Positions 33,664 through 62,425 of a DNA stretch of 64,000 nucleotides are shown piece by piece. Each line of letters begins with the position of its first letter. Position 1 is the first letter of the stretch. The translations under genes and the position numbers were made by a program. Source of the stretch: a virus; the IMG/VR virus record IMGVR_UViG_3300008108_000323, positions 1 to 64,000 of that record; one strand, given 5' to 3'. The notes beneath the pieces are model-generated. The model saw only the letters and a program-made list of their open reading frames with translations. It ran no database searches and was not told the origin of the DNA.

Positions 33664-33664
33664 G

Positions 33665-34277: not shown

Positions 34278-34514
34278 TTAACCACTCATTTTGCCCTTGG
34301 CGATATTTTTAGCGTGACGAGATTCAAATGCTTTGCGCTGACCAACAGTTTGGTTTGTTTTAACGCCTTGTTGACCAAAGCGAATTGTCTTTACTTGATC
34401 TCCCTCTTTAGCCACAACGATGTGACTCTTCTTTGGGTGTCCGGGTGTAGCTTTAGGTTTGTTGTAACCTGAAACCCCAGCTCTACTCAGCCGGCTGTCC
34501 TTCTTGATTGGCAT
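34278..34514 (-). CDS. Conserved small basic phage protein
   Basis: 78 residues. SRLSRAGVSGYNKPKATPGH, KSHIVVAKEG and TIRFGQQGVKT with RHAKNIAKGKMS match a conserved small protein found in many phages and some bacteria; no function known to me. It overlaps the holin-like gene by 32 nt. Confidence 0.65.
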   Translation of the reverse strand: MPIKKDSRLSRAGVSGYNKPKATPGHPKKSHIVVAKEGDQVKTIRFGQQGVKTNQTVGQRKAFESRHAKNIAKGKMSG

Positions 34515-41627: not shown

Positions 41628-44600
41628 TTAATCAAAAGGAACTAACTCAACTCCTTCTCCAAGATCAAGAGCTGCACCTGACTGTTTGTTCACTGTTTCT
41701 CTTTGCTTTTTTATGGTTTCTACTGCAGGAGACTTCTTAGTACCTTCGTCAAAAGGAACCGCAGTAGCACCATTCCCTAAATCTAAACCGCCAGCAGATT
41801 GTAGTTCAGATGACACTTGATTTCTACCTGTGATAATGGCTGTTTTAGGGTCAGTGTTCATTTCGCTAAACAGTTTCATAGCACCCTTGGCGTAGTCCTT
41901 AAAGCGATCTGGATTACTGATCAAATCCATATCCATTTTAAAATACTTAGATCCTTGTTGAATATTTTGATTATCGTAAAGCATATTCATCACAGGGCCA
42001 ATTGGTGTTAGTCGTTCAGTTATATACATCTCGGTATATCTTTCTGGATCTTCTTGGTACATCTTTCTACGCTCTGCGCTAACAAACGTATATGTGGCAA
42101 GTTCTGCAACTTCTCTACCAACTGCATTCAAGTCAGCCAATATTGAACCAAGCTGCTGATAACCCATTAAGATGTTGATATTTTCGTCGCCCATTATAGG
42201 TGCGCCTGTTCTTGCATCTTTGTTTATAGATGAGTTTACATCAATGAGATTCTTGTAAAGTCCGCTATCAATAACGTATTGCTGAACTAACTTACGAGTA
42301 ATCATACTGCTGTACTGAAGATAATTGTTGTACTCTTCAGGAGCAAACTTGTATGCACCAGAAGGAGTATCAACGCTACGTGGAGGTAGAGTCGGCAAAC
42401 ATTCCCAAGCGTCGCCTTTTTTAGTAGCCAAATAACACAATGCTTCCCAATCAGGAATGTCATAACCCGCCACTGCACGTGATGCCTTAAATACATCGAA
42501 TGTATTGTACAAGAAGCTCCCCATCAATGAACCTGTAGGTGTCTGAAGAACTGGTTTACCAAAAGCATCATACTTAACTGGAAGAGACTTCTGATCAATT
42601 TGGACAAAAGGTAAGTCAACATACTGGGTAGGATCTCCAATTGGCCATCTCTCAGCCATTTTAGTTGCTAGTTTATACCAGTACAAGGTAGCTGCACTAT
42701 CTTCAACTTTCATGCCCATTGCCTTAAAGGCAGGTGCTTCTTTAGCATCGTAATCAACCATGTATTTCCTTCTCCACTTGTCTATCCATGACAAACTATT
42801 TGGAACCATGCCTGAACTTAGAGTCACAGTGATATCTGCGAGAAACGCCGGTAGTTTATTTTCGTCCTCAGAACTAATCACAGTGGCTACACTAAGCAAA
42901 CCTCTTACGAATGTTTGATCCAAAATATACTTACCTGCAGATTCCCAGTTACCAAATAAGCTCAAAGTAAAATCCTGAGTTATTTTTTCAAAATCCCCAC
43001 GGTTCTGATACTTCAATTCATTTTGTTCTAGCAACTTGCTTTCTTTGTATTGGATGTATAACGCTGCGCCAAAAATACCCAGAGCACGATAATCAATGAT
43101 CAAATCGTTTTCCTTATCCCACAACTCGTTTCTTTTTGATTTGTAGTTAGGGTCAAACATTTCCTTGAATCTTTCTTTAACCAAAGTAAGGTTGATTGAG
43201 TAAGGTCGCTCGAATACATACGAGTAAGTCATACTCTTGCCCTTATCTTCATTTTCATCATCAGGCGCACCGCTAACAGCTCCACCCATAACCATTTGCT
43301 TTGCGATAAACTGAACCCCGGTCCCAACGAGTGCTCTAGCCAATACACGGTCCAAGGATCTCGCATCATCTCTGCGATCGGCTAATGTCTCTGCGTAATC
43401 AGCAGAAGAAGCATCCGCTATTCCGCGCGAACGAGTATAGGCTTTGTAACCATTTGTACCTAGCTTCATCAAAGCATATTCTGGTAAGAAGAACTCAAGC
43501 AATTCCAAAGCGTAGTTAGAAGGGATTCTTGTAAATGGAATAATACTAGTACCAATCAATCTAGACGCTTTAGCAATAAGTGAATTTTGATTGATTTTGT
43601 CACGAGTCAAGCCTTGAATTTTGCTTATTTGGTCAGTGGTGAAGTTGTCGTTAGCATAAACATAACGCATCGCTTCTTTGCTGGCTTCAGTATTCTGAAA
43701 ATCGCTATTTACTTCAATATAAGCTTTTCTAACTGCGTTGTATTCTGCTGTTAATCTTGCTTTTTCCGAACTACTTGTAGCATTTTTTATAGCTTGTTGG
43801 TAATTATCATGCTGCTTTGTGAACTTAAATTGTTCTGACAAAGCTGAGAAGTAAGCGAAATCTCTAAACACAGCATCTGTCGCACCCATTACACGGAAAA
43901 CTATATCAGGTACTACTCCAAACAAACTCTGAAGAGCAGCAATTGCTTGCTGTTTTTTAGGAATTTCACCCAACATGTTCATTTTAAATCCGTGTTTTTC
44001 GGCCAGCTCTTCATTTGACATGTCGCTGTAACCAGCTGCCACACGCATTTGATCAAGCTTAAGTCCCCAGAATTTTGCAAATGATTTGTAGAAACTGTAA
44101 CCTTGAACATAACTATCAGGGTTTTGATAAGCCTGACTCATGGTTCCGTCCTTGAGGATTTTATAAGCTCGCTTTATACCCAAGGGCATGCCGTAACGAA
44201 CGCCGGACCACCAATCCTTCAGTGAAGTTTTAGTGAACTGTTTTTCAGAAATACCCAGCTTAAATGCTGCCAAACTAATAGCTGATTTCAAAGGATCCAC
44301 TATCAAACTGGTGATGAATTTAGTTACGTTTGACAGCGTGTTTATAGATATAGAACCCGGAGTCATCAACCCACCTTTAATGAAAGTGCGATACATATCA
44401 GTTATTGAGTCATCTCCTTCGTATGGCTGACGAGCATCAATAAAGCGTTGAGCTGCTTCCTGCATTTTCTCATAAAGGCCAGTGTGGTATTGCAAGTTAG
44501 TTTTGGAAGGATCTGAACTTGAGATACCAAATGGATCTGATTCTGCAATTGCTCTACTTTGCTTATAAAGTTCTTTGATTTTATCAAGCTCGACTGCCAA

Positions 44601-47600
44601 ATCACGAATCTTCTGTTTAGCTTTTTCTGGGATGTTTAAACCTTTCTTTTCGTTACGTATAAACATTCCTTCTGCACTAGACAAGTAAGTATCTTTTGTG
44701 AGTTGTCTAAACAACTGCAACATTCTACCGATACCTGTACCAGCCTTCAATATACTGCTATACATTTCAGCAATCGCTTTGGGATTTGCACCACTTTGCT
44801 TAGCTGCAATCAAATCTTTAATTGCTTTGGCCAATGGAACATCGCCGTCTTCAACTGCATCGAACAATGTCTGAAGTATTACAGGATACTCAGTTGGATC
44901 CATGTTCTCGATCTCATCGATAAGTTCTTTCTGAGACCGAACCACACGCATTGCTTCCTCTTCGTTTTCCATTACATCAGCTTCATCCTTGAACATACCT
45001 TTGCCCTGCTGCTGCTTGGCAATGTTTGCTCTTTGCTTCAACGAGAAGTAATCCTGAACGTCACTTGGTTCAAAGCCACTCCGCATCAAAGCAGCATAGA
45101 GTTCAGAATCTGTAACGCCTTCGAACTCAGGATTAGCTTTGATCTCCTTGATAAACTCAGAAATATCATCAAATATGTCAGTAGACTTTCTCTGTTTCAA
45201 ATCATTTACTCTAGCTTCACCAAGCATTGCGTCATACATCTTACGCATTGGCTCGCTGATTTCCATTTCAACAGGAGTGCCTTTTATTCCACCATATACT
45301 TTTAATAGCCAGCGTTTGAAGTCTTCGAACATCTTGCCCAATGCTCCACTAGGAGCCTTGCCATCATACAGGTACTTCTCAAATCCTCTTGCAAAAGCTT
45401 CTGAGGTTTCTTTTGTCCAGTTTGAGTGACCAACTGAATCCATGAACATTTGTTTTTCAACAGCTGTCATAGATGATTCCCAAACGTGCGCCAGCTCGTG
45501 CATTGCAGTGGTTATATTTGGGTTAGTTAGCGCAAAAATGATATGCTTACCCTGATCTGTTTTAACTGTTGCACCGTGAGCACCAGCTTGGTTTTGCTGG
45601 AATAGAGCCATACCTTCAGCGACTTTGTTAAGACTTTCTTCAGTCAACTCTATCGAGTTAAATAAATCAGTAGGTATATACTCATCACTGGTATTGGCAA
45701 GTGCGACTTTCTCAAGAAACTTTGGATCTAACTGACCTACTTCCAAAGGCTGACCAGTATTGATGATAGATTGGCCCTCTCTATTGAAATATACTGGATA
45801 TTGCTCTGCACTAAGAGTAATTTGTGTTTTAGAATTCAAATAAGTATCTCTTTCGAGTCTAACTGTCTGAACGCTAAAATTAAATTTTGAAGAAAGTTTT
45901 TGAGCAATACTAGGTAGTGTTTTATTATAAAACGTATTTATACCTACCTTCATATCTGTCTCAATTGCACCAACTTTTGGACCAACCGCATGTCCGTTAG
46001 CCAAGACTATTTTCTTCACGCCATAATCAGCAGCAACCTTCATTGCATGTTTCAAAGCAAGTTCTGCAAACTGCCCAGATTCTGTGATTGGAGTAGTTTT
46101 TTTAAACTTGACCATTGCTTCTCTCATTTCTTCTTCACGTGCCAAATAAGAAGATATCTGAGAATCTGAATACCCTTTTTCAACAAGGTCGGCTTTTATT
46201 TTCTCTACATCACCTTTTGCTTTGTTTTTTGCAGCATTGCCATCTAGGATTATACTAGACCGCACAGAATCTTTATACTTATATTTTATGTCATCTAAAA
46301 CTTTTGTTCTAAATTCTTGAATTTTATCAGATTGAATTTCCTGAAGGTATAGAACTCTTTCGCCATTGGACGCAACGACAACTTGTGTTCTCAAATGCAA
46401 CATTACTTCAGATGGAGTATTCAGAAAATGCTTTAGATTGTAATAAGATATAGTCAATGAGTCACGACTTTTCACAAGTTCTTCTAACTGATTTTCAAGC
46501 TGATTCATTTCTTGAGCCATGAGTTTTGTAGGTGTTTTACCTTGAGAACTCTTTTCCATTTCGGAAAGCTTTGAAATTATATTTGCTATTTTCTCATTGT
46601 AATCTCTAAGTAATTTGTTAGATGAAAAAGGAAGTGTCAATAAGTGTTCTTTGTAAGTACCTTCTATACTTCCGGGAAATATTGTTGTGTACTTAGTAAA
46701 CTCATCTAATTGCTCAGTACGCTTCATTTCATCCTTAAGTTCTACATAAATTTTAACTAATGATTTTAAATGCTGTTTATTTTTATCACTTAAATCAGTT
46801 CCGTTAAACTGTGCTAAATCAGAAAGTGCTTTCTTAAACGCATCAAACTCTTTGCGTCCAATATATTTTTCGTAAAGCTCTACATTTTCATCCTTGATAT
46901 CGTCTAAACTGATAATTTCAACTGTACCATCGCTTTTCTTTACAGCAACTGGTTCTACAATTCCCCGAGTATCAAAAGTTTCGTCTACACGCTTGCTATC
47001 CTTATCAGAAAATCCAAGTAATACAACATCTGTAACTGTTCTTTTCTGACTTGCTGACTCTGGGTCATAAACTACAAAGCTGGGAATATTTGAAGCCCAG
47101 TCCATTAGCTCTTGAGAACTTATGAATTCTTTTCCCTGATTACTCTCAATGAACCCATCTATATCTAGCCAATCTAGTTCTGCGGTTTTAGCGCCGTATT
47201 TTGTCAACAGGCTTTTTAAACTCGCAAGTGCGATTCTGTTTTTACCACCAGCTTGCTCAATGACTTTTGCCGATGCGTATGCTGTATTAGAATAAAAAGC
47301 TGTGCCTATATTCTTTTCAACTAACTCACGCATCTTTATTTTATCTCTGAGATCCTGCTGTTCCTTTGGACTCAGTTGTTTAAGATTGTCTACAAAGTTG
47401 GACGCTGCTGAACCAACGAATAGGTCAGGATTGTTTTCATACCTGCTATAAAGGTCATCGAACTTCTCTTGAGAAACTAATCCAGTATCAACCAGTTCCG
47501 CTTGCAATTCCTGCTTGGTAAAGTCACTTATTTTTTTGTAAGGATCATATATACCATTGGCAAAGTTTGCAATTCCGGGGAATGTTTGATAAAACATCTG

Positions 47601-50600
47601 ACGCGCTTCTGCATCAGTTGCTTCTGCCAGATAGGTTTCTGCTTGTTTTGACGAAGCAACTTTCGAGTTTATTGCTTGTATTTTTCCATCTATCTCATTG
47701 GATAAGGTTACTGGATCAGGTAAAACAAAGCCTTCGCTTTCCATTTGCATCAGTTCATCAAAATCGTAAAGAACGTCTGTACTACCGTCATCAAAAGTAA
47801 ATGGTTCCTGACCAAATGCCTTTTCAATAAACTCCATGGCTATTTTGTAATCAGGAGAGTTTACCAACGCAATAAGATTTTCAACTTCTGGGATTGTCAG
47901 TGAGCCATCCGAACTAGATATGATATCATTAATTTGCTGCAGTGCTTGAAGCGAATCAAAGTATTTATACAGATTTTTACCTTTTCCTTCCAGATCACTT
48001 ACCAAGCCTTCTAAACCATCGGCGAATGTTTTTAATTCCTGAAATATTGATTCTGCAAAATTCACATCTACTGGAGCAGCGTTAGCTGCAGTTACCCCAA
48101 GTGTTGTCTTCGCAGTTGGCTGTACTTCAGCAACAATCAACTCCTCGCTATTCAGCCCTGCAAATCTGCTTGTGGTTACAAATGCGTTGTGAATACTCTT
48201 GAGTCTAGCCAAGCTCTTTGGTCCATAAGAGTCAATGAAGTTGTTGTAAATTAATTCAAGTGCTTTACTGTCGGCTTCAGTCAAGTCATATTTATTCGAA
48301 AAGGTTGCGATTGCTGCTGCAACTGTCTTTGGTTCGTGGCTCAAAAACAGAACTTTAGAAATGTCATTGAATACACTAGCATAAGAACCAAACTGAAAGA
48401 TATTTTTGTCTGCATAAAACTCTACAACATCATTTATCAATTTTTCAGTATTCTCATCTATCACACCCGCAGCTTTAAGTTCTGATACCTTAGTTCTTAC
48501 TGCAGTAGGAGTAGCAAATTTTGAAGACTCAGGTATCGCAAGTTCATTCTCCATGAACTGGACAGATTGTCTCAAGGCTTTCTGCACTTGAGGTGCTATA
48601 CTCTTATTGAACACATCACTGTAAGTACCTATATCATTTGTTACTCCTGTATATTTGGCTATGTTTATTAAAATTTCACCCGGTGATGTCATTGATTTAC
48701 CATTGCCAGTATATAAGTGATTTGGTGAAAACGAAACTTGCGGTAAATTGACATCATCAACAACACGAACGGTCATCAAACCAATGTCAGGATAATTGTC
48801 GTAAAGATTTTGATGATCACTAATTGGTATTACTGATTCAATATTAATCATTCTCCCACCCAAGTTAACAGGTCGTTGACGATAATCGAACATGGTTCTC
48901 TCACCAAAAAGAGATGTTCTTTTTCCAAAGCTTGGTTTTCTAACATACTCGGGAGTTTTTCCTTCCTGAGCAGCAGTTAAACCAGATGTGAAATCAAAAA
49001 TACTCTGTAATATAGAAAAGAAGTTTGCTTTGCCACTAAAATCTATATTACCAGTTGTCATGTTGAAATACTTTTTTACTTCGGTATTAGATATTTTAAA
49101 CGTAGGATCAAAAGCAATAGCTTCACCTTGCTCATTCAAAACAACCCCGGTCATCAAAGCTATTTTTTCTGGGCTAAACTTTTTCTCATTTAGCTGCATG
49201 GCTTTCACCATGTTTGGATAAATCTCCGCTGGAACCATTGTAGCAGGACCCTGATACAGTGGAACTAGATTAGGAGACATCTTGAGCCAATCTTGAAACT
49301 GCTGTTCCGTTCTCTTCAGCATTTCAATGCGAGTATCCATGAATTGCTGTAGGGTAATGCCAGCACGAGTAGCCTGTGATTCAAATTGTCTTATAGCTAC
49401 CTCAGCAAACATTCTCTTTCTTCTTAGATTCTGTTTCCATTGGAATGGCTTTTTCATTGATGATGTGAAGCCCCAAACCTCAGCACCTTTTTTCAAGAGA
49501 TCCTTTTTGTACTTTTCACGTGTAGCATCGTTCTGCTGAATCAAATTAACTGCTTCGTTGTATTTGTTCATGTCCACCAAACCTGCAGCTTTAGCCTTAG
49601 CCATTGCTTCAATTTGAACTGGGTCAGCGCCAGAAGCGACTGGTTCACCAGTGTTTTCCATAAACTCCTGTGCAGTAATCTCACCACTTAAAAAACGTGC
49701 TGCATCAATCTGTTCATCTTTTATAAATGCGCCTTCTTCCTGTGTGTCTTGAAGAATCTCGGCTACTTCTTTGCGCCTTTGATTTTCCTTTACTAATTCC
49801 ACTGCCTGTTTCTTAAGGTCAGCCTTACGGTTTTTAGTCGTGGCAGTTGACATTGGAGTTTGGCGAACAAACTTTTCAGTGGCACTAAACGTATTGGAAC
49901 CAGTATACTTATTAGCAACAAAATTGTTAAAGTCCTTTCTCAGTTTCTGGAAGTCTTTCAAACCAGTTTTGTCATTACCAAAGATATCAGAAACTTTACT
50001 TCGGCTGTTCTGAAGCAAGTTTACAATGAAGTTGTCAATCGCATCTTCTTTTGACATTCTACCATCAGAAACCATTTTACCAAAAACTTCATTGAAGGTG
50101 GTATTTCTGGCTACAGCTTCACGAACTTTATCGGTAACCGCATCTCTGTTTCTTTCTCTGACTGGTTGGCCAGTATCCATGTCAGTATCTTGTGTGGTGA
50201 ACAGAGTATCGTCAAAGTCTCTAAACAAAGGAGCCATGTAGTCTGCAACCTTGGCTGCTTTTTTACGAGCCAAGTCTGTGATTACAGCTTTTCCGTTCAT
50301 GAAGAATGAAGTCAAGTTTATCTTCATCTTCGAGCCCATGTTTTGACTAATCTCTGAAGCCGTGTCCTTTACATTGGTGTCGTCAACTTTAACTTCCTCT
50401 GCTACTCCTGTGAAGAGACCAGTTCTTGCCTGAGCATCTGCATCAAACTTTGGATTGTAGCGAGCGTTTGCACTGGCCTCGACTTTCTGAATACGTTCTT
50501 TTTTACGGCGTGAGGTTTCAGTTGTATTCTGATAGGATACTTTGTTGTTATCTCTACCTGTAGATGATTCATTCTCGACCTGTGACTTTCTTCTGTCCTC

Positions 50601-53174
50601 AAGGTTTTTGATTGCAACGTTCTCAACTTTTTCTCTAGAAACAATGCCATGCTCCTTGGACTGACTCTCAACATACTCGACAGTTTTTTGATTCAGTGGA
50701 ACAAATTCTTCTGTAGTGCTAGTCAAACCCTTTGCTTCCAACTGTCCGGTTTCTGAGTTGTATCGGTATATAACTTTGTTGTCAACTACACCGTTTACGC
50801 CAGAAACATAGAACTCTTCTCCCATGTTGCCTGTTCTCTTTTCTACCTGTACACCTTCTGAACCAGCTCCAGAACTTGCGAAGCTGCTTGTGGTAGTTTT
50901 TTGATCTGATTCCACAGGCCCTGAGGACATAACAAGCGGTTGATCAACTGGAACCATTGTAGCATTACCTCTACCATCTATAGCTGCAACAGTAGCAGTA
51001 GTAGCCTCATAGCCTTCGTCACCGCCACCGTTCCTTGCATTTTTAATTGTAGAGTCCAATAGATCAAGTATTTCTCTGTCAGTTTCAGATATATTTTCAC
51101 CATAAGTGGATTCCAAATACTGGGCAAATTGTGCTCGTGATTTAAATAGAACGTCAATATTACTTACATTGAAAGTAGAAAATACCAATGAAGTAAACGC
51201 AATTGAGCGTAGTGTAAATAATCTTGAATCTTCAGTTTTACCATACGCATTTTCTACAGCTTCAGTTATATCAAAACCATTTTGCTTAAATTCACCCCAA
51301 ACATTCGCAAATGTCTCTTCTGTAAAAGAACCCGCTGCTCCAGAAACAGTTCTACCAAACATGGTAAACATCTTGCCAAAGATGTTATTTGGCACAAATC
51401 TGCCCAACTGTAATACCCCTGTTGCTTTATCATATGCTTGAGTACCCAATTTTTCAGCAACGCCCGAAGTACCATCTTGTCCGGCCAGCTCATAGCTTAG
51501 AAAATCTACACCATAAACAGCAGCTGCTTTCTCAAATAACTGAAAAGCACCGACACCAGTTCTACCGTAGCGAGATGCCATATATGTACGAGCAGCCACA
51601 CCCGCTTGAGATGTAAATACCTTACTTAAAGTTGCAGCGGTAGGTTTAGCATACATGCCAATTTGAATAGCTGCGCCCAATGAACCGATGATACCCTGTG
51701 CAAGCGCTTGGTCTTCTTGAACTTCCTGCAGACGGTTAATGACATCAGGATTTACGTACATGCCGTTTTCCTGCAATACTTGAACTGCTGTCGTGAGTTC
51801 TTCAGCAGGTGTCAAATATTTATCTCCAGTGAAAACACTAGCTGCATCAGTAACTCCTTTACTCACTTCAGCAACGAAGTTTGAAAACACACCAGTTGCA
51901 TCAATCTTAGTCAAATCGGCGTTAGTATAGATAATCTTGTTAAGAGCTTTGATCTCAGCTTTCTTTTCAATGATTTTATCTCTTAGGTTACTAGCGTAGA
52001 TATAGTTAGCTTTTTGTTCATCGGTAGGAAGTGTTTGCATACCGAAAGCGCCAACTGTATTTAGATATAATGTACCGAGCCAACCAGCATCTTTAAGGCG
52101 AGCTGCTTCGTATCTTTCGTCTAAGCCCTCTTTAGTATAAACAGCACGACTTGAAGATCCATCAAACCCTTTGAGTTTTTTCTCTAACTCTTCTACTTGT
52201 TCGTAGAGAACATTTCGTCTTTCCTTGAGTATAATTCTGTCGGTTTTCTTTTCACCCTGCATGGTTTGAACAAAAACCTGCTGAGCTTTTTCTTTAGCTT
52301 TACCTTCAAGTCTGCTTCCATTTACATCGAAGAACTCTTGTTGAGGTATTGCGTTGAAACCAAAAAATCCGCTATCACGTTTAATCTGTTCTATCTGAGA
52401 CTTGAGCGCCTGAACTTTTTTCAGTTGTTCTGGGCCCAGTTCAGTATTTCTCATTGGAAACTTAGGAGCAGATGCGTATATTTCCTGAATTTGATCATAC
52501 AGACTGGAGATTTTCTTTTCGTCTTCAGATAGCTCAGACAACGCTTGGTTCTCACGATTTTCATCGTACTTAGAACGCATCACACCCTTAGCATCTTTGT
52601 AGAATCCAAGTTGCTTTCTCTTATTCTCGTATGAAGTAAGTCCAACGGACCTTTCATATTGAAGTTTATATCCGTTTAGAATTTCGTCTATTTCATAATC
52701 ACGCAAGCCTTGCTTCGTAAGTAACTCTACAAGTGTCTCTTTGTTTAAAGCGTTATATCCTTTACCTGCGGTATATGGCACATCAATGTTGATTGAATTG
52801 CCCATGTCAGATTCAAATATAACCCTACCCAAATCTTCTTCGGATAAGTTTGAAATAGAACCGGCGTTGGGATTTTCATCAAAGACAGTTCCAGATTTTC
52901 CAATGAAGTCTCTTTTAACAACATCTGAACCTTTTGCGATTCGCATTTTGCTGTAATCTTCAGAGCGACTAATTAGAGCTCCTATATTACCACCTTCTAT
53001 AACAACTGGTTTCAATAAGTCATTGACAGTTGAATAGCCAATCTCTTTTAGTTTAGCGCCGTACTTTCTTTGATAAGCATCCCTGTTTAAAGGGTCCTGA
53101 AGGTAAGTGTAAAAATCCTTTGGAGTTTGAAAAGGTTGGCCATATGCATCTACTGCAACACCATTAGACTTCAA
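41628..53174 (-). CDS. Giant polyvalent virion protein with metallopeptidase motif
   Basis: 3848 residues in one frame, 18% of the window. Likely an ejected internal protein, like those in phages with large polyvalent proteins. The first part is helical. The middle is low complexity, with S/T-rich linkers. Around 2270-2430 a segment LYLQEIQSDKIQEF and KHAMKVAADYGVKKIVLANG resembles modules often seen in large phage polyvalent proteins. TTAMHELAHVWE (H2559-E-L-A-H2563) is a zincin HExxH motif. The last third is mostly helical. I see no RNA-polymerase DxDxD motif. Functions other than a virion/ejection protein are inferred. Confidence 0.7.
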   Translation of the reverse strand: MKSNGVAVDAYGQPFQTPKDFYTYLQDPLNRDAYQRKYGAKLKEIGYSTVNDLLKPVVIEGGNIGALISRSEDYSKMRIAKGSDVVKRDFIGKSGTVFDENPNAGSISNLSEEDLGRVIFESDMGNSINIDVPYTAGKGYNALNKETLVELLTKQGLRDYEIDEILNGYKLQYERSVGLTSYENKRKQLGFYKDAKGVMRSKYDENRENQALSELSEDEKKISSLYDQIQEIYASAPKFPMRNTELGPEQLKKVQALKSQIEQIKRDSGFFGFNAIPQQEFFDVNGSRLEGKAKEKAQQVFVQTMQGEKKTDRIILKERRNVLYEQVEELEKKLKGFDGSSSRAVYTKEGLDERYEAARLKDAGWLGTLYLNTVGAFGMQTLPTDEQKANYIYASNLRDKIIEKKAEIKALNKIIYTNADLTKIDATGVFSNFVAEVSKGVTDAASVFTGDKYLTPAEELTTAVQVLQENGMYVNPDVINRLQEVQEDQALAQGIIGSLGAAIQIGMYAKPTAATLSKVFTSQAGVAARTYMASRYGRTGVGAFQLFEKAAAVYGVDFLSYELAGQDGTSGVAEKLGTQAYDKATGVLQLGRFVPNNIFGKMFTMFGRTVSGAAGSFTEETFANVWGEFKQNGFDITEAVENAYGKTEDSRLFTLRSIAFTSLVFSTFNVSNIDVLFKSRAQFAQYLESTYGENISETDREILDLLDSTIKNARNGGGDEGYEATTATVAAIDGRGNATMVPVDQPLVMSSGPVESDQKTTTSSFASSGAGSEGVQVEKRTGNMGEEFYVSGVNGVVDNKVIYRYNSETGQLEAKGLTSTTEEFVPLNQKTVEYVESQSKEHGIVSREKVENVAIKNLEDRRKSQVENESSTGRDNNKVSYQNTTETSRRKKERIQKVEASANARYNPKFDADAQARTGLFTGVAEEVKVDDTNVKDTASEISQNMGSKMKINLTSFFMNGKAVITDLARKKAAKVADYMAPLFRDFDDTLFTTQDTDMDTGQPVRERNRDAVTDKVREAVARNTTFNEVFGKMVSDGRMSKEDAIDNFIVNLLQNSRSKVSDIFGNDKTGLKDFQKLRKDFNNFVANKYTGSNTFSATEKFVRQTPMSTATTKNRKADLKKQAVELVKENQRRKEVAEILQDTQEEGAFIKDEQIDAARFLSGEITAQEFMENTGEPVASGADPVQIEAMAKAKAAGLVDMNKYNEAVNLIQQNDATREKYKKDLLKKGAEVWGFTSSMKKPFQWKQNLRRKRMFAEVAIRQFESQATRAGITLQQFMDTRIEMLKRTEQQFQDWLKMSPNLVPLYQGPATMVPAEIYPNMVKAMQLNEKKFSPEKIALMTGVVLNEQGEAIAFDPTFKISNTEVKKYFNMTTGNIDFSGKANFFSILQSIFDFTSGLTAAQEGKTPEYVRKPSFGKRTSLFGERTMFDYRQRPVNLGGRMINIESVIPISDHQNLYDNYPDIGLMTVRVVDDVNLPQVSFSPNHLYTGNGKSMTSPGEILINIAKYTGVTNDIGTYSDVFNKSIAPQVQKALRQSVQFMENELAIPESSKFATPTAVRTKVSELKAAGVIDENTEKLINDVVEFYADKNIFQFGSYASVFNDISKVLFLSHEPKTVAAAIATFSNKYDLTEADSKALELIYNNFIDSYGPKSLARLKSIHNAFVTTSRFAGLNSEELIVAEVQPTAKTTLGVTAANAAPVDVNFAESIFQELKTFADGLEGLVSDLEGKGKNLYKYFDSLQALQQINDIISSSDGSLTIPEVENLIALVNSPDYKIAMEFIEKAFGQEPFTFDDGSTDVLYDFDELMQMESEGFVLPDPVTLSNEIDGKIQAINSKVASSKQAETYLAEATDAEARQMFYQTFPGIANFANGIYDPYKKISDFTKQELQAELVDTGLVSQEKFDDLYSRYENNPDLFVGSAASNFVDNLKQLSPKEQQDLRDKIKMRELVEKNIGTAFYSNTAYASAKVIEQAGGKNRIALASLKSLLTKYGAKTAELDWLDIDGFIESNQGKEFISSQELMDWASNIPSFVVYDPESASQKRTVTDVVLLGFSDKDSKRVDETFDTRGIVEPVAVKKSDGTVEIISLDDIKDENVELYEKYIGRKEFDAFKKALSDLAQFNGTDLSDKNKQHLKSLVKIYVELKDEMKRTEQLDEFTKYTTIFPGSIEGTYKEHLLTLPFSSNKLLRDYNEKIANIISKLSEMEKSSQGKTPTKLMAQEMNQLENQLEELVKSRDSLTISYYNLKHFLNTPSEVMLHLRTQVVVASNGERVLYLQEIQSDKIQEFRTKVLDDIKYKYKDSVRSSIILDGNAAKNKAKGDVEKIKADLVEKGYSDSQISSYLAREEEMREAMVKFKKTTPITESGQFAELALKHAMKVAADYGVKKIVLANGHAVGPKVGAIETDMKVGINTFYNKTLPSIAQKLSSKFNFSVQTVRLERDTYLNSKTQITLSAEQYPVYFNREGQSIINTGQPLEVGQLDPKFLEKVALANTSDEYIPTDLFNSIELTEESLNKVAEGMALFQQNQAGAHGATVKTDQGKHIIFALTNPNITTAMHELAHVWESSMTAVEKQMFMDSVGHSNWTKETSEAFARGFEKYLYDGKAPSGALGKMFEDFKRWLLKVYGGIKGTPVEMEISEPMRKMYDAMLGEARVNDLKQRKSTDIFDDISEFIKEIKANPEFEGVTDSELYAALMRSGFEPSDVQDYFSLKQRANIAKQQQGKGMFKDEADVMENEEEAMRVVRSQKELIDEIENMDPTEYPVILQTLFDAVEDGDVPLAKAIKDLIAAKQSGANPKAIAEMYSSILKAGTGIGRMLQLFRQLTKDTYLSSAEGMFIRNEKKGLNIPEKAKQKIRDLAVELDKIKELYKQSRAIAESDPFGISSSDPSKTNLQYHTGLYEKMQEAAQRFIDARQPYEGDDSITDMYRTFIKGGLMTPGSISINTLSNVTKFITSLIVDPLKSAISLAAFKLGISEKQFTKTSLKDWWSGVRYGMPLGIKRAYKILKDGTMSQAYQNPDSYVQGYSFYKSFAKFWGLKLDQMRVAAGYSDMSNEELAEKHGFKMNMLGEIPKKQQAIAALQSLFGVVPDIVFRVMGATDAVFRDFAYFSALSEQFKFTKQHDNYQQAIKNATSSSEKARLTAEYNAVRKAYIEVNSDFQNTEASKEAMRYVYANDNFTTDQISKIQGLTRDKINQNSLIAKASRLIGTSIIPFTRIPSNYALELLEFFLPEYALMKLGTNGYKAYTRSRGIADASSADYAETLADRRDDARSLDRVLARALVGTGVQFIAKQMVMGGAVSGAPDDENEDKGKSMTYSYVFERPYSINLTLVKERFKEMFDPNYKSKRNELWDKENDLIIDYRALGIFGAALYIQYKESKLLEQNELKYQNRGDFEKITQDFTLSLFGNWESAGKYILDQTFVRGLLSVATVISSEDENKLPAFLADITVTLSSGMVPNSLSWIDKWRRKYMVDYDAKEAPAFKAMGMKVEDSAATLYWYKLATKMAERWPIGDPTQYVDLPFVQIDQKSLPVKYDAFGKPVLQTPTGSLMGSFLYNTFDVFKASRAVAGYDIPDWEALCYLATKKGDAWECLPTLPPRSVDTPSGAYKFAPEEYNNYLQYSSMITRKLVQQYVIDSGLYKNLIDVNSSINKDARTGAPIMGDENINILMGYQQLGSILADLNAVGREVAELATYTFVSAERRKMYQEDPERYTEMYITERLTPIGPVMNMLYDNQNIQQGSKYFKMDMDLISNPDRFKDYAKGAMKLFSEMNTDPKTAIITGRNQVSSELQSAGGLDLGNGATAVPFDEGTKKSPAVETIKKQRETVNKQSGAALDLGEGVELVPFD

Positions 53175-53757
53175 CTTGTTGAACTGGTCTTGTGCTTCCC
53201 GTAGCTATATTCTCACCAGTGAACTGAGTCTTTTCATATTCTGATAACCCCCCGCTAATTTTTGTATCGAAATCATTCTCGCTTACAAACTGGAAATACT
53301 TGCCTAATACTGATTTCTTTTCGTTGTAGAACTGAGATCGCTGTGCTGGGTCAGCTAGAACAGCTTCTAGTTCTTCTTTACTCTTGATGAAAGTATTACC
53401 AAAATATATGACATCACTGTAATCCTGCTTGGTAGCGGTATACAAAGCATCTATGTCAAAACTTGAACCTGATAGTGTCTTTAACTCCTGTTCTCTAGCT
53501 GCAATCTGCTCCTGAGTAATTTCAGGCTGCTGCTCATTCATCGCTTTTACTATGGGAACATCTTGTTTTGGTTGACCTGAAATAGCTTTTTCCAACCCAG
53601 CTTTAAAAGAAGATGTTGTTTTTTTAGGTGCAGTAATATCTACTCTACCTTCTAAAAAACTTTCTGGTTTAGTACCAGTAGTAGAAGTATTGATTACAGG
53701 CTTACCCCCAATCGTAAGTCCCCCTTGTCCGGAGTTAGGTTTTTTCTCTTCAGGCAT
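53164..53757 (-). CDS. Hypothetical virion protein
   Basis: 197 residues. Disordered N-terminus (EEKKPNSGQGGLTIGGKPVI), then helical, with IAAREQELKTLSGSSFDIDA. Overlaps the giant gene by 11 nt, suggesting coupled expression and possibly a partner role in the ejectosome. No motif recognised. Confidence 0.5.
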   Translation of the reverse strand: MPEEKKPNSGQGGLTIGGKPVINTSTTGTKPESFLEGRVDITAPKKTTSSFKAGLEKAISGQPKQDVPIVKAMNEQQPEITQEQIAAREQELKTLSGSSFDIDALYTATKQDYSDVIYFGNTFIKSKEELEAVLADPAQRSQFYNEKKSVLGKYFQFVSENDFDTKISGGLSEYEKTQFTGENIATGSTRPVQQVEV

Positions 53758-53807: not shown

Positions 53808-55385
53808 TTACTTGATATCGTCTTGGTCACGAACACCGGCCATGATCTTGAAGAAAGCAGCGTCCCAGTTTTGCAGACTTTCATCACTCCAGTTACTTCG
53901 TTGGGTGATTTGAGATAGCAATGGAGAACCACCAGTAGTCTTTTGCTTACGAGAGGCTTGCGGTATAACCCATCTACCACTTGAATCAGGTTGGTAAAGA
54001 GGTATAGCATAGCCACCAACACCAATTTCAGGAACTTTCGATACGTTCAGCTGACGTTGGTTTCCAATAGCAAAAGGGAACATCAAATACTTTGTGCCAG
54101 CTGCGTCGGCAGCTTTTCGCTCTTCAACAGTCATTGGTCTAAGATAAGTTACTTCTTTTCCATTTTCCGTATACTTTGCAGTAATCGCAGGGAAAATTGC
54201 AATGTGACTTATTTTAAAGTCTTTTTGTACTGATTCCGAAGTAAACGCAGGTACACCCCTGGCCATATCAACTATGTAAGAATTCGTTGCAATTTGAACA
54301 TCTGTTCCACCCGCATCGCTAGAAACTGCAGCTGATAAATCAGATACCAAGGCGTTTGATGTTCTTTTGTAGTTTGCAGTTAACGGCCCCACAGTGAAAT
54401 CCGTAGGTGCGGTTTTTTTATTCGCATCTACAAATACTGAAACGTTAGTTCTGTTGAACAGCTTGTCTTGATTTTCATACTTGGCCGGGATGTTTGGAAG
54501 AATTGTTTCATTGAACAATTGATTATACAAATCATCAAACGTCATTGCATAAGGGTCCAGCGCATCAGGCTTGCCGTCGGAAGCAAGCTGTGCTCTATAC
54601 TGTAGTTGGGCATTTGGATTTTTTGTAAACCAGTCTTTACCTAAATCAAATGCGTTTGTATCCTCCTTTACATCAGGGTTTGTCTTTTTTAATTCCAAAG
54701 CCTCTGCTCGAGTCGCAGGAATACTTATGTATCTGTCGATTTCTATTCCCTCTTTACTAGTTGTCTTTTTTTCAGATATAATTACACCTTGCGTCTTTAG
54801 ATCAAGGACAGTTGGGTCATTAAAGATTTTTGTAAAGTCATATCTATCATGGAATAAAACTTCAGGGAGAATAAATCCATCACTAGGTTCAATCGGCTCT
54901 ACATAACCATCCGCAAACATCTGGGGATTTCTTTGATATATACCCAAAAGTTCTTCTTTACTTTTTGCAGTTTTCAGCGCTTCATACAACATCTCCATAC
55001 CCGGAGAAACAAAAACATTTGATTTTTTAGTCTGTGCGTTTTGTATCTTGTCTTCAATGTCAAAAAAGTATTTTGAATCGTTCAGATAATTATTCCTCTT
55101 TGCCTTTAAATCAGCTTCACCTTGATAAGACTTTTCTATTACATTTGAGTCTTTTTCTTTTTCAGCCCTAATTAGAGTTTGAATAAACTTGACTGTTTCA
55201 TCCTTATTATCATTAATGAAAACATTATGATAAGCATCGTTATCTACAGTTACCCTGCTTCGAATTGCCTGAAGTTCTCTAGCCTGTCTATCTAACGCTG
55301 CGCTGTCATCTACTACAGGAGCCTTAAGTTTAGGAAACTTACCTGTTGCGCCTATTGCTGCACCTAATGAAAATCCACTTGCCAT
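53808..55385 (-). CDS. Virion protein
   Basis: 525 residues. The N-terminus is glycine- and alanine-rich (MASGFSLGAAIGATGKFPKL), then helical segments. The C-terminal half is alpha/beta with a basic end. Placement between internal virion proteins suggests another internal or tail-associated protein. No known family recognised. Confidence 0.55.
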   Translation of the reverse strand: MASGFSLGAAIGATGKFPKLKAPVVDDSAALDRQARELQAIRSRVTVDNDAYHNVFINDNKDETVKFIQTLIRAEKEKDSNVIEKSYQGEADLKAKRNNYLNDSKYFFDIEDKIQNAQTKKSNVFVSPGMEMLYEALKTAKSKEELLGIYQRNPQMFADGYVEPIEPSDGFILPEVLFHDRYDFTKIFNDPTVLDLKTQGVIISEKKTTSKEGIEIDRYISIPATRAEALELKKTNPDVKEDTNAFDLGKDWFTKNPNAQLQYRAQLASDGKPDALDPYAMTFDDLYNQLFNETILPNIPAKYENQDKLFNRTNVSVFVDANKKTAPTDFTVGPLTANYKRTSNALVSDLSAAVSSDAGGTDVQIATNSYIVDMARGVPAFTSESVQKDFKISHIAIFPAITAKYTENGKEVTYLRPMTVEERKAADAAGTKYLMFPFAIGNQRQLNVSKVPEIGVGGYAIPLYQPDSSGRWVIPQASRKQKTTGGSPLLSQITQRSNWSDESLQNWDAAFFKIMAGVRDQDDIK

Positions 55386-55397: not shown

Positions 55398-56063
55398 TTA
55401 AGAACCACCAGCCCCTACCGAAGCAGCAATGTTTTCACTTCCTCTTTTGATAGCTGCGCCCGCTGCCTTCTCAGCGTATGTTCTGAAATCTCTAGAAGCT
55501 TTAATATCCTTTTGGGTAATTAAGCTCATCGCTCGATTCATGCGTTCTACACCGGACATAGCAAGTTGCTTTTCAGCTACATCTGCTTGTGTTATTCTAG
55601 CTTCTCCTGTTGTTCTATCAATTGCTGCAGTACGACCAAAAAAAGCTGAAGCCTGAGGTGATCCTTGAGCAACAGCATTCATGCGCTGAGCTTGCGCTCT
55701 ATTGTTTTCCATACGCATTATGCCTCGCTGTTCGCTTCCGATACCCTGTTGCATGTTATTTTGGTATATGGATTTCATTTCAGCGTATGGACCTTTCGTA
55801 GCTAAATACCCCGGGAAAGGTAAGCGGTTTGCTTTCCTTAATTGAGATATTCCAATTGCCATTTGAAGTAATCCCATTCCAGCAGATACCGAACCAGCAA
55901 GACCGCTGCCACCGCCACTACCGCCACCACCAGATACAGTTTTAGTAGCAGGGGTAACACCAGACATTCTGGTAGCGCCACCAATAGCGTCACCAACGGC
56001 CCCAGTAGCTCCAGCAGCTGTACTGCCACCACTAGCTCCTAAAATAACTCCACCGACGCTCAT
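55398..56063 (-). CDS. Internal virion protein, paralogue
   Basis: 221 residues. A glycine-rich N-terminus (SGGGGSGGGSGLAGSV) is followed by a helix-rich region with QMAIGISQLRKANRLPFPGY. The gene downstream shares G-I-Q-M-x2-G-Y-x2-L-R-K-A and LPFPDY. This is the layout of small internal proteins of podoviruses that bind the portal or are ejected with DNA. The two are tandem paralogues. Confidence 0.55.
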   Translation of the reverse strand: MSVGGVILGASGGSTAAGATGAVGDAIGGATRMSGVTPATKTVSGGGGSGGGSGLAGSVSAGMGLLQMAIGISQLRKANRLPFPGYLATKGPYAEMKSIYQNNMQQGIGSEQRGIMRMENNRAQAQRMNAVAQGSPQASAFFGRTAAIDRTTGEARITQADVAEKQLAMSGVERMNRAMSLITQKDIKASRDFRTYAEKAAGAAIKRGSENIAASVGAGGS

Positions 56064-56065: not shown

Positions 56066-56629
56066 TTATTTTAACATGTATTGAATTCCTTGAACTAAAT
56101 TCTCAGAGCCGGTGGCAATTGCTTGACCGGCTGCTTCCTGAGCCATTAACTTGTACTCTCGTTTAGCTGATACTTCACGCTGTTGTATTGTGCTTATTTC
56201 ATCTGCTGATCTAGTCATACCTGAAATAGCAGCCCTTCTATAACTTTGATCCATCTTACTTAAATTTACTTCGGTAGATAGTCTGTCCAGAGCCCCAATC
56301 CTAGAGGCAGCTTGACCTGCAAACTGAGGTGTTGTCTCAGCAAGTGAACGTAATGTTTTAGCTGTTTGACCTGCAGTTTCTTTTCTAACTCCACCAAGCG
56401 TATCATCTCCCAAACCTTCTTGATACTGCTTGCGATACATTTCCATGTTTTCGTTAGCGTACTGCATTCCAGAAGTGTAATCAGGAAAAGGAAGTTTCCT
56501 AGCTTTTCTCAATTGATTATATCCAACTAACATTTGGATACCACCAGCTATGCCACCAATGGATTGCCCAACAGCTTTACCTGCTCCTTTTGCCAAGTTG
56601 GCCAGCATCATTATTGTCATTGGATCCAT
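56066..56629 (-). CDS. Internal virion protein, paralogue
   Basis: 187 residues. Starts MDPMTIMMLANLAKGAGKAV; GGIQMLVGYNQLRKARKLPF matches the gene below. Helical through the centre with SGMTRSADEI. Two nucleotides separate it from its paralogue. Likely part of the ejection apparatus. Confidence 0.55.
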   Translation of the reverse strand: MDPMTIMMLANLAKGAGKAVGQSIGGIAGGIQMLVGYNQLRKARKLPFPDYTSGMQYANENMEMYRKQYQEGLGDDTLGGVRKETAGQTAKTLRSLAETTPQFAGQAASRIGALDRLSTEVNLSKMDQSYRRAAISGMTRSADEISTIQQREVSAKREYKLMAQEAAGQAIATGSENLVQGIQYMLK

Positions 56630-56649: not shown

Positions 56650-58440
56650 TTATTTGTTATACAATCTTGAATTTGCTCTATACTTAACTACGTAATTCAC
56701 CAACTTCTGGAACAGGTTGGGAGCAAACGTCAACTTAACCTTTAGGAACCTGCCCCACAATCTAGAAGTATCGCCAGAATTGATACCTGTGACAGTAGAG
56801 TCATTCTTTACAGGAGAGTAGTAAAAGTCTTCCAGCTCTTCAAACTCACCACTTGTCAAGAAAGAGACATGGTCACGTGTACCAAAATCAACTCTCTCAG
56901 GAGTAGTATGAGTAACCACTTGAATGGCTTCGAAAGTTTTACTGAGGTTAGGATCAATGTTTACTACACCTTCGATGTGGCCATTATACAGCGCTTCATA
57001 GAATGTGTTGTAGTTACCTGAATTGTGAACGTAAATTTTGTTCTGTTCGTTTGGCTTGGTCGTGTAAACGGTATTTCCACGAGTAGTCATAATGTTTGGC
57101 CAAGCTGATTGGAAGCAGATAAATCCGTTCTTCACTTCATCATATACCAAGGTAAATATCTTGTAATACTGTGGGTGAGTAGCAGGTGTTCTTCTTGCCC
57201 ACAAACTTGTATAGCTTGCACCTAGGCCCGGAACCGTATTTATGGTATCTACGCCTGATGATATTTTCTCATATACATATGGCACACCGCTTATATCTCT
57301 TTCGGCTGTATCGAACTCACCGTAATAATTAAAGCCAGTGCCGTCTCCCTGATGACTAACTTTTACCAGAGCCCCAAGCGGATAAGACTTCACAGGCAAA
57401 GTATAAGTCGAATCATTATAAGTCTGAAACTCCGGGATAGTTGGGTTAACCGCCTTGAATGTAAACATGGCTTCATAAAACCTTTGGTTATATCCCGCAG
57501 TAACGCCTTCACCAGAAATTGGTCTGAGTGAATCAGTATGCCATGTAGTGTTGTTGATCAAGAATGACATCAAACCCTTGTCAGAAAGCACTCGAGTTCC
57601 ATCTCCACCAAAGCGAACGATCTTCTTGGTTTCAGAATTGTACCAGTACAAGTTTTCATCACCACTGAAAGTCTTACCTTTTACTACACTTCGTTTGTTG
57701 GTAGAACCAAAGCTGCTCAACTTCTGGCCCTTGTTTGTCAAGACTCCACCAGAACCCAATACGATTTCTGTACCTTGATCACTCACCAACATTTGTGAAT
57801 CGCTGATGTAGTGACGTATGAAAGCATTTGGCTGAAGGGTGTATAGGTTACCATTAATGGTTTCCAACTCAATAATCTCTCCGTCGTTAGTCTCCAAGTC
57901 AACTACGTCAATCGGTTTGAAGATTCTATAGTTGTCTTTTTCGGAGCCAGTGCTTTTGATCTGAGACCAGCGGATTGAGGCGGGTCGTTTTCCATCCCAA
58001 CGATTATCTGCATCATATCCGTTTTCAGTAAACAGATTGTCTATGACGTTATATTGGGAATCGTAATTATTCTGATTGTCTACTTCAGGCCACTGTTCTA
58101 GCCAATAAAGCAAACCTGTTCCCCAAGATCCTTGAGGTAGCTCGGCGTAGGTAACTACGTTTGAACCTAAACTAGCTATTGTCAGCGTTGGAGACCAGTC
58201 TCGGATATACGCATTACCTGCACGTTTGTAACCAGTTTCATTTAACCCGGTGATAGTTGTTTCCAAATACTGAGGGAAAACATATCCCGGGCCAGCGTGT
58301 TCCAAATTATGTTCTATTGTATGGAACATCTGAGTATTTGAAACATTCTGAGAATAGAAAGAGTAGGCCAATCCAAATCCATAGTGCAGACCGTTGTACG
58401 TACTCATTCTTATTTTAAGTGTGCTCTTCTGAGTAAACAC
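56650..58440 (-). CDS. 3' part of long tail protein, broken by frameshift
   Basis: 596 residues counted from a GTG at 58440; the frame stays open upstream without an ATG. The -1 frame of the gene before it reads ERIYILTGNERGVQNNVEVF then GGDVFTQKSTLKIRMSTYNG, continuing directly into this part. So this segment and the upstream gene form one product of about 1.5 thousand residues. The body is beta-rich, as expected for a tail hub, stabilisation or fibre-attachment protein. GTG 58440 is probably not a true start. Confidence 0.6.
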   Translation of the reverse strand: MFTQKSTLKIRMSTYNGLHYGFGLAYSFYSQNVSNTQMFHTIEHNLEHAGPGYVFPQYLETTITGLNETGYKRAGNAYIRDWSPTLTIASLGSNVVTYAELPQGSWGTGLLYWLEQWPEVDNQNNYDSQYNVIDNLFTENGYDADNRWDGKRPASIRWSQIKSTGSEKDNYRIFKPIDVVDLETNDGEIIELETINGNLYTLQPNAFIRHYISDSQMLVSDQGTEIVLGSGGVLTNKGQKLSSFGSTNKRSVVKGKTFSGDENLYWYNSETKKIVRFGGDGTRVLSDKGLMSFLINNTTWHTDSLRPISGEGVTAGYNQRFYEAMFTFKAVNPTIPEFQTYNDSTYTLPVKSYPLGALVKVSHQGDGTGFNYYGEFDTAERDISGVPYVYEKISSGVDTINTVPGLGASYTSLWARRTPATHPQYYKIFTLVYDEVKNGFICFQSAWPNIMTTRGNTVYTTKPNEQNKIYVHNSGNYNTFYEALYNGHIEGVVNIDPNLSKTFEAIQVVTHTTPERVDFGTRDHVSFLTSGEFEELEDFYYSPVKNDSTVTGINSGDTSRLWGRFLKVKLTFAPNLFQKLVNYVVKYRANSRLYNK

Positions 58441-58457
58441 ATCTCCACCAAAAACTT

Positions 58458-61271
58458 CTACGTTGTTCTGAACCCCACGCTCATTTCCAGTGAGAATATA
58501 AATTCTTTCGCATACGTTCCAGAACCAGTTGGGTATAAACCTACGGCTCCCGGAAAAGTTGCTTGCATGCTACTACCTAATTTAAAAACAGTACAGCTTT
58601 TCATACTGCTGAAAAAAGGAGTTGCAAAAGCTACACCCTCAGGTGGAACACTGATTCCATTTTTAACTTTATCGGCTATGTCCCAAGCTGTAACTTCTCC
58701 AGTAAGAAAACGTCTAGAATTTAAAATACTAATGTCTGTGTAAGGAACCAAGGTAGTATTAAAACACCCAGTGTATTCTTGATATACAGATTCGAAATCT
58801 CCTGTGCTGAAACCCTGAAGAGTTAATTCATCACTTGGTATCGGAACCCCCAAAACTTTTAACTTGTCACCTGCTGCAAAGTCATATTGTGTCTGATTAA
58901 AGTAGATATCAGGAGAATGAAAATAACCAAAAGCAGACGCACCTGTACTACCGAGCTGTATATCGTTCTGATACGAAGTTGTTCTAAAGTTTAAGCTGTG
59001 GTCTCTTCTACAGTAGTTTTGAGGATAACTAGAAAAAGTATAGCTAGGTGTTCTTGCAACATCTTTGTGGTACGGTATCAAGTGTGTCTGACCGAGTGAA
59101 TTATTATCAAGAACACCGCCGATTAGAATACCAGTGGCCAAAACCTCAGGGATTCTATCTGCTCGAACAATTCTATAAGCTTTTATCAACTTGTGCAGTG
59201 GCTCATTATTCACCTCGTAGCTCAAATCGATATTTCCAAACTTAGGATAAACTACATTCACCAATGTAGAATCCAAGTCAGTCATATTCGTAGTGGTGAT
59301 GTTGTTGGCGCTTCTTCTATTTGGAAGAGTCACGTTAGTCGCAGTTGTGTCAAAGCGGATGTCATCAAGATAATATGGAGCAGACCACTTTCCTGTTTCT
59401 TTCCACTGAACCTGAATCCCAAAACGATAGGTATCATTCATCATGTACCCTGTACGAGTTAGTACATTCTGAGGATCCTGATATTCTCCAAATCGATAGT
59501 GCGGATATGTTCTATTGCAGTCGTTCTTACCAAAGCGATTACTCTTGCCTACAGAAGTAATTGTTTTTACTTCTAGAGAGTGTGTTATTTGCTGAGCCCA
59601 TGCAGTGAGTTCCGCATCAACCAGCTCATCGATGTTGGCCAGAAACAATCGGTTTGAGTTTAGTCTCAGACTGCTTACCCTAGTTACCTTGGCCGTTAAA
59701 GCGAGAAGCTCAGGTATAGACAGCGGAAAATTATCTTGGCCGTTGTTACTATGAATTACTTCTATTGAAGTTTCATTGTTCAAACGGTATCTCTGAACCA
59801 TGGTGGCAGTGAAGGTTTCGCCTTCATACTCAATGGCAACTAACTCAAAGTAAGTAAACTCACCGGGAGGAATATTATTAACCTGTAGCTTAATTGCTTT
59901 ATTGGTTAATGTGCCCGGCTGATCACCTTTGATCAAGGATGGTTCATTAGTATTTGCTTGGAATACGTTGATGGGACCAGTTGGATACAGGTAATCTGTT
60001 CCAACAAAGTCATCTGTTACAAAACGACCAGTGTAACGCTTGTTACCGCACAAAAGTGATCCCCCACCCTCAACACTGGCGATGTACTGCATTGTAGCTG
60101 CAGGAGTATCTACAAACAAAGTTGTTTGCTTGTCAACTTTTGCAATGTCAATCTCTCCACCGTTTGAACTGAGTACTCCATCCTGAACATATGGATATGG
60201 AACACTCAGGGCCCTTGGTCGATTAACTCCGTCTGTCCAGTAAATATTTACATCCTGTGTACGCTTTTCAACTTGTGCCTGAATTTGATAATCGACATTA
60301 AAGTTAAGCTGCTTGGATCTAAGTAGACGAGTATAAGTATAGGTTTCGGTAGCAGGATTAAACTGAACTACACCTACTTCACAAAGGCTATTGTATGGAG
60401 TGTAGTATGTCGCAGCGAGGTAATTGCCAGTGGCAGAGAATACTATTGTGTCGTTGCCAACGCTCTCCATTCCTATGATTTTAAACTTAGGCGAAGCTGC
60501 TAGGAAACTTATATACTCAGAAAGCTGAACAGTGTAGTCGATTAGGTTTCCTGTCTCTAAGATTTCAAAATCAGTAAAGCCAGAATTTGTTACATCGAAA
60601 TACGCTGTAGTACCTGTGACATATGTAACAGTGCCGTGCGTGAACCCGCCCGATAATCCGTTCAACATAGTCTGCACTTGAGTTGCAAGACTAGTCATCG
60701 GCGAAAGGTCAATGGTCTGAGTCCCAGTGCCAGCTGTGGTGAAGTCAATCTTGTTGATTAGAGTAGACTCAGTATACAGCTCTATCGTTGTTGGGTTGAT
60801 TACTTTTACGTAGTATGCTGCCCCGCTCACCAAAGGCGAAGGAGGTGTTCCACCAACGTTGAGATACCCCACAACTTGACTATTTGCTAAACCGTGTGGC
60901 GCACCAAAAGATATTTGATCGGTAGTGGTATTTACGCTGGAGATCAATATCGAAGATCCAACATAACTTCCAGTAAAACTACTTGGGCCAAGAACAATCC
61001 CAGAACTATTTATAACAGAAACGGAACCGCTAAAGCTATAAGGATACTCGGCTCTCAAGTAAACACGCCAAGTACTTACGCTCTCAGTTGGGTCAGGAAT
61101 AGTAACCTTTAACGCATTACCAAAAACTGGAGAAATACCAGTCATGTTAGCACCGGCATCGTCACGGTGTCTAATATTTTGGGCATCTATATAATTACCA
61201 CCAGATACCAACTGCAAGTCGGTATCCTTGTCCATAAAGCCGTTCTGAAGTAGTCTTACTATCTGGGACAT
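58458..61271 (-). CDS. 5' part of long tail hub/stabilisation-like protein
   Basis: 937 residues in frame; the end (SLEMSVGFRTT) appears only because the frame shifts. MSQIVRLLQNGFMDKDTDLQ and LVSGGNYIDAQNIRHRDDAG are typical of the N-terminus of long podoviral tail proteins. The rest is beta-rich with many S/T/V. The shift point lies near 58505-58511 (GCGAAAG on the minus strand). A programmed -1 frameshift, a natural mutation or an assembly error would each give this picture. Confidence 0.6.
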   Translation of the reverse strand: MSQIVRLLQNGFMDKDTDLQLVSGGNYIDAQNIRHRDDAGANMTGISPVFGNALKVTIPDPTESVSTWRVYLRAEYPYSFSGSVSVINSSGIVLGPSSFTGSYVGSSILISSVNTTTDQISFGAPHGLANSQVVGYLNVGGTPPSPLVSGAAYYVKVINPTTIELYTESTLINKIDFTTAGTGTQTIDLSPMTSLATQVQTMLNGLSGGFTHGTVTYVTGTTAYFDVTNSGFTDFEILETGNLIDYTVQLSEYISFLAASPKFKIIGMESVGNDTIVFSATGNYLAATYYTPYNSLCEVGVVQFNPATETYTYTRLLRSKQLNFNVDYQIQAQVEKRTQDVNIYWTDGVNRPRALSVPYPYVQDGVLSSNGGEIDIAKVDKQTTLFVDTPAATMQYIASVEGGGSLLCGNKRYTGRFVTDDFVGTDYLYPTGPINVFQANTNEPSLIKGDQPGTLTNKAIKLQVNNIPPGEFTYFELVAIEYEGETFTATMVQRYRLNNETSIEVIHSNNGQDNFPLSIPELLALTAKVTRVSSLRLNSNRLFLANIDELVDAELTAWAQQITHSLEVKTITSVGKSNRFGKNDCNRTYPHYRFGEYQDPQNVLTRTGYMMNDTYRFGIQVQWKETGKWSAPYYLDDIRFDTTATNVTLPNRRSANNITTTNMTDLDSTLVNVVYPKFGNIDLSYEVNNEPLHKLIKAYRIVRADRIPEVLATGILIGGVLDNNSLGQTHLIPYHKDVARTPSYTFSSYPQNYCRRDHSLNFRTTSYQNDIQLGSTGASAFGYFHSPDIYFNQTQYDFAAGDKLKVLGVPIPSDELTLQGFSTGDFESVYQEYTGCFNTTLVPYTDISILNSRRFLTGEVTAWDIADKVKNGISVPPEGVAFATPFFSSMKSCTVFKLGSSMQATFPGAVGLYPTGSGTYAKEFIFSLEMSVGFRTT

Positions 61272-61768: not shown

Positions 61769-62425
61769 TTAGTTCGGTTTATTTGGGATTGTATCTAATG
61801 AATCTGAAACCACATCAGCCGTGCGAACCATTTGTCTCAATAGATCGTTGGTTATTGCAGTAACAATATCATTTTCCAAAGCAGCATCTATGGGATATTG
61901 GTCAACATCCGGACGATAGTTTGGAACTTGAGTAGGGTCATTAAACAACGCTTTGACCAAAAGCTTGCGCTGCTTTGGATTTTTGTAAACGTTGATGTAA
62001 AACTTTCCGTCATAGTCAGCTTGATAATCCCAAGCTATTCCTTTTTCTTTTTGAAAAATAGAATGCATAGACAGAGCCGTATAGTTTGAGCGAATACGAA
62101 GAAAGGGCTTTTGGCCATTAACGTGCCCAACATATACAAAACCATCATGTCTATCATCAAGCCTAATAACAGTGGGACAAGGAAATCTAACAACATCACA
62201 ATCTGCTTCTACTTCTGCTTCTAATAATTCTACACTGTAAGCTTGTACACACGCTTCATTGATTCGGTCAAACATTGGTTGTCTACTGGTAGCAGACAAA
62301 ATAGATGCTCTAGCTATATGAATCCTAGACTCGATGTAAAGGGAATCATAACGCATTTCATCAGTAGTGTTACCACCATTTACATTACTAGTAATACGGT
62401 GTACAATTTCTGGTAGTGTACTCAT
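61769..62425 (-). CDS. Ring/adaptor-like protein
   Basis: 218 residues. A helical N-terminus with YDSLYIESRIHIARASILSA is followed by beta-rich sequence (PTVIRLDDRHDGFVYVGHVN) and a helical end. Resembles neck or ring proteins that decorate the portal of podoviruses, but no motif is exclusive. Confidence 0.5.
   Translation of the reverse strand: MSTLPEIVHRITSNVNGGNTTDEMRYDSLYIESRIHIARASILSATSRQPMFDRINEACVQAYSVELLEAEVEADCDVVRFPCPTVIRLDDRHDGFVYVGHVNGQKPFLRIRSNYTALSMHSIFQKEKGIAWDYQADYDGKFYINVYKNPKQRKLLVKALFNDPTQVPNYRPDVDQYPIDAALENDIVTAITNDLLRQMVRTADVVSDSLDTIPNKPN

Follow-up and report, generated by a model that had tools for sequence, protein, structure and literature searches.

Programmed -1 ribosomal frameshifting occurs in phage tail genes, the G/GT pair of lambda being one example. 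The closest described counterpart of the gene considered here is gp44 of the crAss-like phage PhicrAss001 (PDB 7qok, 7qol and 8ckb; Pfam PF25731). PMC10172136 describes gp44 as forming a hexamer at the end of the tail and states that the muzzle protein is highly conserved among crassviruses. The locus studied here lies in a window of 64,000 nt, the whole stretch of DNA that was analysed, taken from the 66,819-base IMG/VR virus record IMGVR_UViG_3300008108_000323. It is like frameshifting of the lambda G/GT type in that the reading of a tail gene carries on in a -1 frame further downstream, and like PhicrAss001 gp44 in its match to PF25731 and in a profile match to that protein. It differs from the former in having no slippery heptamer, no conservation of the frame change in relatives, and sequence missing at the junction. 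It differs from the latter in that the gene is very probably interrupted by a deletion, whereas its intact relatives encode single proteins of 1367-1573 aa, read through under translation table 11.

The two frames lie on the minus strand. The first ORF (58458-61271) encodes 937 aa from an ATG start to a TAG stop at 58460, and the second (56650-58440) encodes 596 aa, with GTG as its first available start. An initial annotation had taken the two for one tail-protein gene, with the -1 frame continuing the first ORF into the second, where there is no ATG. Re-reading the sequence agrees with this: the -1 frame spells ERIYILTGNERGVQNNVEVFGGDVFTQKSTLKIRMSTYNG, which leads into the ORF at 56650-58440. 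Both frames are open together for 28 codons (58541-58458, the stop included as the last). Within this overlap homology switches to the -1 frame, leaving 58458-58502 (minus strand, ending at the TAG at 58460) as an out-of-frame tail of the first ORF.

Both frames are parts of one gene, which in this uncultivated crAss-like phage encodes the muzzle, a protein of the tail tip. The crAss_MUZ family PF25731 matches the first part at 114.4 bits and the second at 79 bits, compared with 160.8 bits for the intact protein of the related contig L013; the Pfam cut-off is 27 bits for this family as for PF25729 and PF25702. The C-terminal domain PF25729 falls just below the cut-off both in the window (24.5 bits) and in L013 (24.4 bits). 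The N-terminal muzzle part (58504-61271, minus strand, approximately 922 residues) corresponds collinearly to residues 1-923 of its L013 counterpart, with 85.7% identity over 923 residues in a tblastn comparison. The C-terminal part (56650-58503, minus strand, -1 frame) is 85% identical to L013 over 618-621 residues and has no start of its own that is conserved in relatives. A profile built from 12 relatives matches the muzzle of PhicrAss001, gp44, for which a structure has been solved, at an E-value of 2.4e-06; single-sequence searches of solved structures gave no match, nor did a blastn search of the region against a phage collection. The tail-gene neighbourhood is that of a crassvirus muzzle, as the gene just upstream (61769-62425, minus strand) encodes crAss-like ring protein 2 (PF25702, CrAss_Ring_2, 34.9 bits). 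Directly downstream of the muzzle gene lie two adjacent paralogues, at 55398-56063 and 56066-56629 (minus strand), with approximately 35% cross-identity to each other's homologues. A similar arrangement is seen for the adjacent ORFs at 35758-36561 and 36565-36996 (minus strand), with approximately 40% cross-identity.

A single frame was found wherever relatives could be compared. The frame is open across the break point in all 18 distinct related contigs, comprising 16 IMG/VR contigs retrieved with either part, one partial contig from a profile search and one contig from a metagenome-assembled genome (MAG), and the whole gene is one ORF in 17 of them, the remaining contig being cut at its 5' end. 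The outcome that would have told against a single gene, namely relatives encoding two separate proteins, did not occur (0/18 split). The single intact frame of a muzzle gene is thus broken in the window and open in its relatives, and the window gene is a damaged copy of a PF25731 family member gene. The usual hosts of crAss-like phages are Bacteroidetes, and Sphingomonadaceae lie outside these; one relative (L021, RFPL01000025.1), with a muzzle of 1429 aa, is on a contig assigned to a Sphingomonadaceae MAG, where a binning error is possible.

Comparison with relatives at the nucleotide level shows what separates the two frames. In the related contigs L013, L014 and L015 the matches to the two muzzle parts share a frame and are separated by approximately 100 nt; in the window there is no such gap, and the two parts meet directly. 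The blastn blocks from each side end on window base 58503, and L013 positions 8769 and 8863 both align there, so that approximately 94 nt between these two positions are absent at the junction (58502-58504, minus strand), with a one-base overlap at the join. Pairwise and eight-sequence alignments agree on this absence. As 94 is 3 x 31 + 1 and so not divisible by three, what follows the gap comes to stand in the -1 frame. The initial annotation had placed the change point near GCGAAAG, and this motif is indeed found at 58511-58505 (minus strand), but the change is not one of a single base. Nor would the joined frames give the one natural-looking protein that was proposed, since the loss of approximately 94 nt would leave the product without approximately 31 conserved residues.

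The peptide encoded by the missing stretch matches six of the six relatives searched and is absent throughout the window's own 66,819-base record. Among 12 aligned sequences, 9 of its 31 residues are invariant, compared with 221 of 1570 overall; this conservation is above average and not extreme, in that 12% of 31-residue windows hold as many invariant residues. A repeat search in the relative gave no direct repeat shared across the two ends of the deleted stretch, and two exact DNA patterns around the junction were found in no other viral contig. An intron or insertion splitting the gene was rejected as an explanation, as the window lacks sequence and has gained none, and no copy of the missing peptide turned up elsewhere in the record. 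Changes relative to L013 fall at codon positions 1, 2 and 3 in the numbers 106, 49 and 331 for the N-terminal half and 68, 56 and 230 for the C-terminal half. To judge from these counts, both halves look like recently functional coding sequence with no other decay, and the third-position bias implies that the break is either recent or absent from the phage itself.

We therefore consider it very likely that the split muzzle gene reflects a frame-breaking deletion of approximately 94 nt in the contig, whatever its source. Such a loss would by itself shift the downstream muzzle part into the -1 frame, with no recoding needed, and recoding could not restore the approximately 31 missing residues. 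The product of the broken gene would probably not work.

Programmed -1 frameshifting, by which ribosomes would read through both frames to give a single functional protein, does find some encouragement in the overlap, where the second frame is open through all 28 codons and lacks a conserved start. The initial annotation had already remarked that the zero-frame codons GCG AAA do not form an X-XXY-YYZ heptamer, and no such heptamer is found anywhere in the 28 overlap codons; the nearest candidates, each with three of four matches, are AGGTTTA at 58541, CCCAACT at 58532 and GGGGTTC at 58475. A downstream stimulatory structure, proposed in the same annotation as a check, is likewise not apparent, because the 111 nt of RNA from 58510 to 58400 have no folding advantage over shuffled sequence (z = -1.26; 25 of 200 shuffled versions fold equally well, in a test of folds without pseudoknots). 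A frame change is seen in none of the 18 related contigs, and the product would still miss the conserved residues encoded by the lost stretch. Programmed slippage is rejected on the relatives, the slip-site search and the folding taken together, and we regard this reading as exceedingly improbable.

Gene fission, in which the muzzle would be made as two separately translated proteins, is scarcely more credible. A GTG does open the second ORF at 58440, with GGTGGAG just upstream. However, of seven aligned relatives just two keep GTG at this codon, the other five having GTC or GTA, and GGTGGAG belongs to conserved Gly-Gly-Asp codons. Since the GTG is not conserved, a separate start for the second ORF is rejected. 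No split is seen in any of the 18 relatives, and the conservation of the lost stretch also speaks against fission.

A second, similar lesion lies approximately 5.3 kb from the muzzle break, in a giant gene on the minus strand. An N-terminal piece of this gene (53219-53757, within the ORF at 53164-53757) matches residues 1-181 of a 4084-aa ORF of L013 by tblastn, and the remainder (41628-53198, with an ORF at 41628-53174 that has a TTG start) matches residues 229-4084 with 77% identity. Between them, at 53199-53218 (minus strand), the window has 20 nt where the L013 contig has 142 nt, a net loss of approximately 122 nt that breaks the frame. The break point is open in all 10 related contigs that contain it. 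Unlike the muzzle lesion, this one carries sequence, approximately 20 nt, with no counterpart in relatives. The giant protein and the neighbouring product of 53808-55385 have no Pfam match above the cut-off and no PHROG match.

For the rest of the record, the ORFs of 90 codons or more in two related contigs were compared with it, and 42 of 47 and 57 of 68 were matched in the window's record. Both comparisons show the second frame break in the giant gene, and no third clear frame break was found among the genes compared with the two relatives. A comparison between the two relatives themselves (47 ORFs, 38 matched) gave no split large gene. Other matches in several pieces belong to tandem paralogues, to the ends of contigs, to a region of reshuffled small genes at 33.6-34.3 kb and to one short L014-contig ORF (55953-56333) that has stop-containing matches in two frames. 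Two stop-containing matches were inspected; one has its stop at the poorly matching start of the alignment, and the other lies in a 110-aa ORF. The count of two clear breaks leaves aside multi-stop matches of the window ORFs 4227-5006, 7598-7903, 33575-33937 and 40441-41148, a one-stop match of the window ORF 23687-25471 in the L014 contig, stop-containing matches of the L014-contig ORFs 3922-4320, 12357-12803 and 55953-56333, and a three-stop match of the L013-contig ORF 48030-48362 in the L014 contig. The matches left aside mostly involve short ORFs. One of the window ORFs concerned, 40441-41148 (minus strand, 235 codons), is 93% and 85% identical to the two relatives, in which it meets 4 and 2 stops; either it is a wrong frame on conserved DNA, or the stops are odd.

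Some further features of the record were noted. In the L013 contig the counterparts of its two ends (window position 1 and record position 66819) lie next to each other, separated by 9 nt that the record lacks, so that by this comparison the record is nearly a full circle; an end repeat was not found in it. In the reshuffled small-gene region, window positions 34117-34283 match the L013 contig at 166 of 167 nt, while neighbouring aligned stretches are 74-89% identical. Within this segment, in an area where small genes are rearranged relative to L013, begins a small Lys-rich ORF (33988-34257, minus strand); one reading is that the segment represents a recent exchange. At 17855-18884 (plus strand) there are three Rfam tRNA matches, of which ARAGORN calls one, a tRNA-Cys (18373-18445), the remaining two being long (99 and 115 nt) and lower in score.

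As to where the muzzle deletion arose, we judge an assembly or library artefact to be the likelier source. Two fresh frame-breaking lesions in one contig favour an artefact, and the initial annotation's view that a mutation or assembly error was at least as likely as slippage is borne out by the missing sequence and by the intact relatives. Repeat collapse is a common assembler error, but the one-base overlap at the junction and the lack of a spanning direct repeat show that the loss is not of that kind, which counts against an artefact.

The same junction provides the best argument for a real deletion in the sampled population, in which a defective or minority genome, probably non-viable, would have lost approximately 94 nt of its muzzle gene. 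End joining or slippage in replication would be expected to leave such a junction, with its one-base overlap and no spanning direct repeat. In addition, single-base frame breaks were not seen in the compared genes, weak or short-ORF matches aside, so the contig looks otherwise accurate. Against this, the second frame-breaking lesion lies in another large conserved gene nearby, two independent recent lesions would be unusual in a genome abundant enough to assemble, and the stretch lost from the muzzle is conserved. We therefore hold a real deletion to be possible but on balance doubtful. A stronger version, in which the lineage has truly lost the 94 nt, the muzzle still assembles from two polypeptides or from a shortened fusion, and the break in the giant gene is likewise tolerated, seems to us very improbable.

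Overall, tracing the split to a deletion in the contig, more likely than not introduced during assembly or library preparation, disposes of a misleading case for programmed frameshifting in the tails of crAss-like phages. It also means that a contig that is nearly circular by comparison with a relative carries two frame-breaking gaps, with the result that gene counts split two large genes. A genuine muzzle deletion would be informative about how much of this protein the phage can do without.
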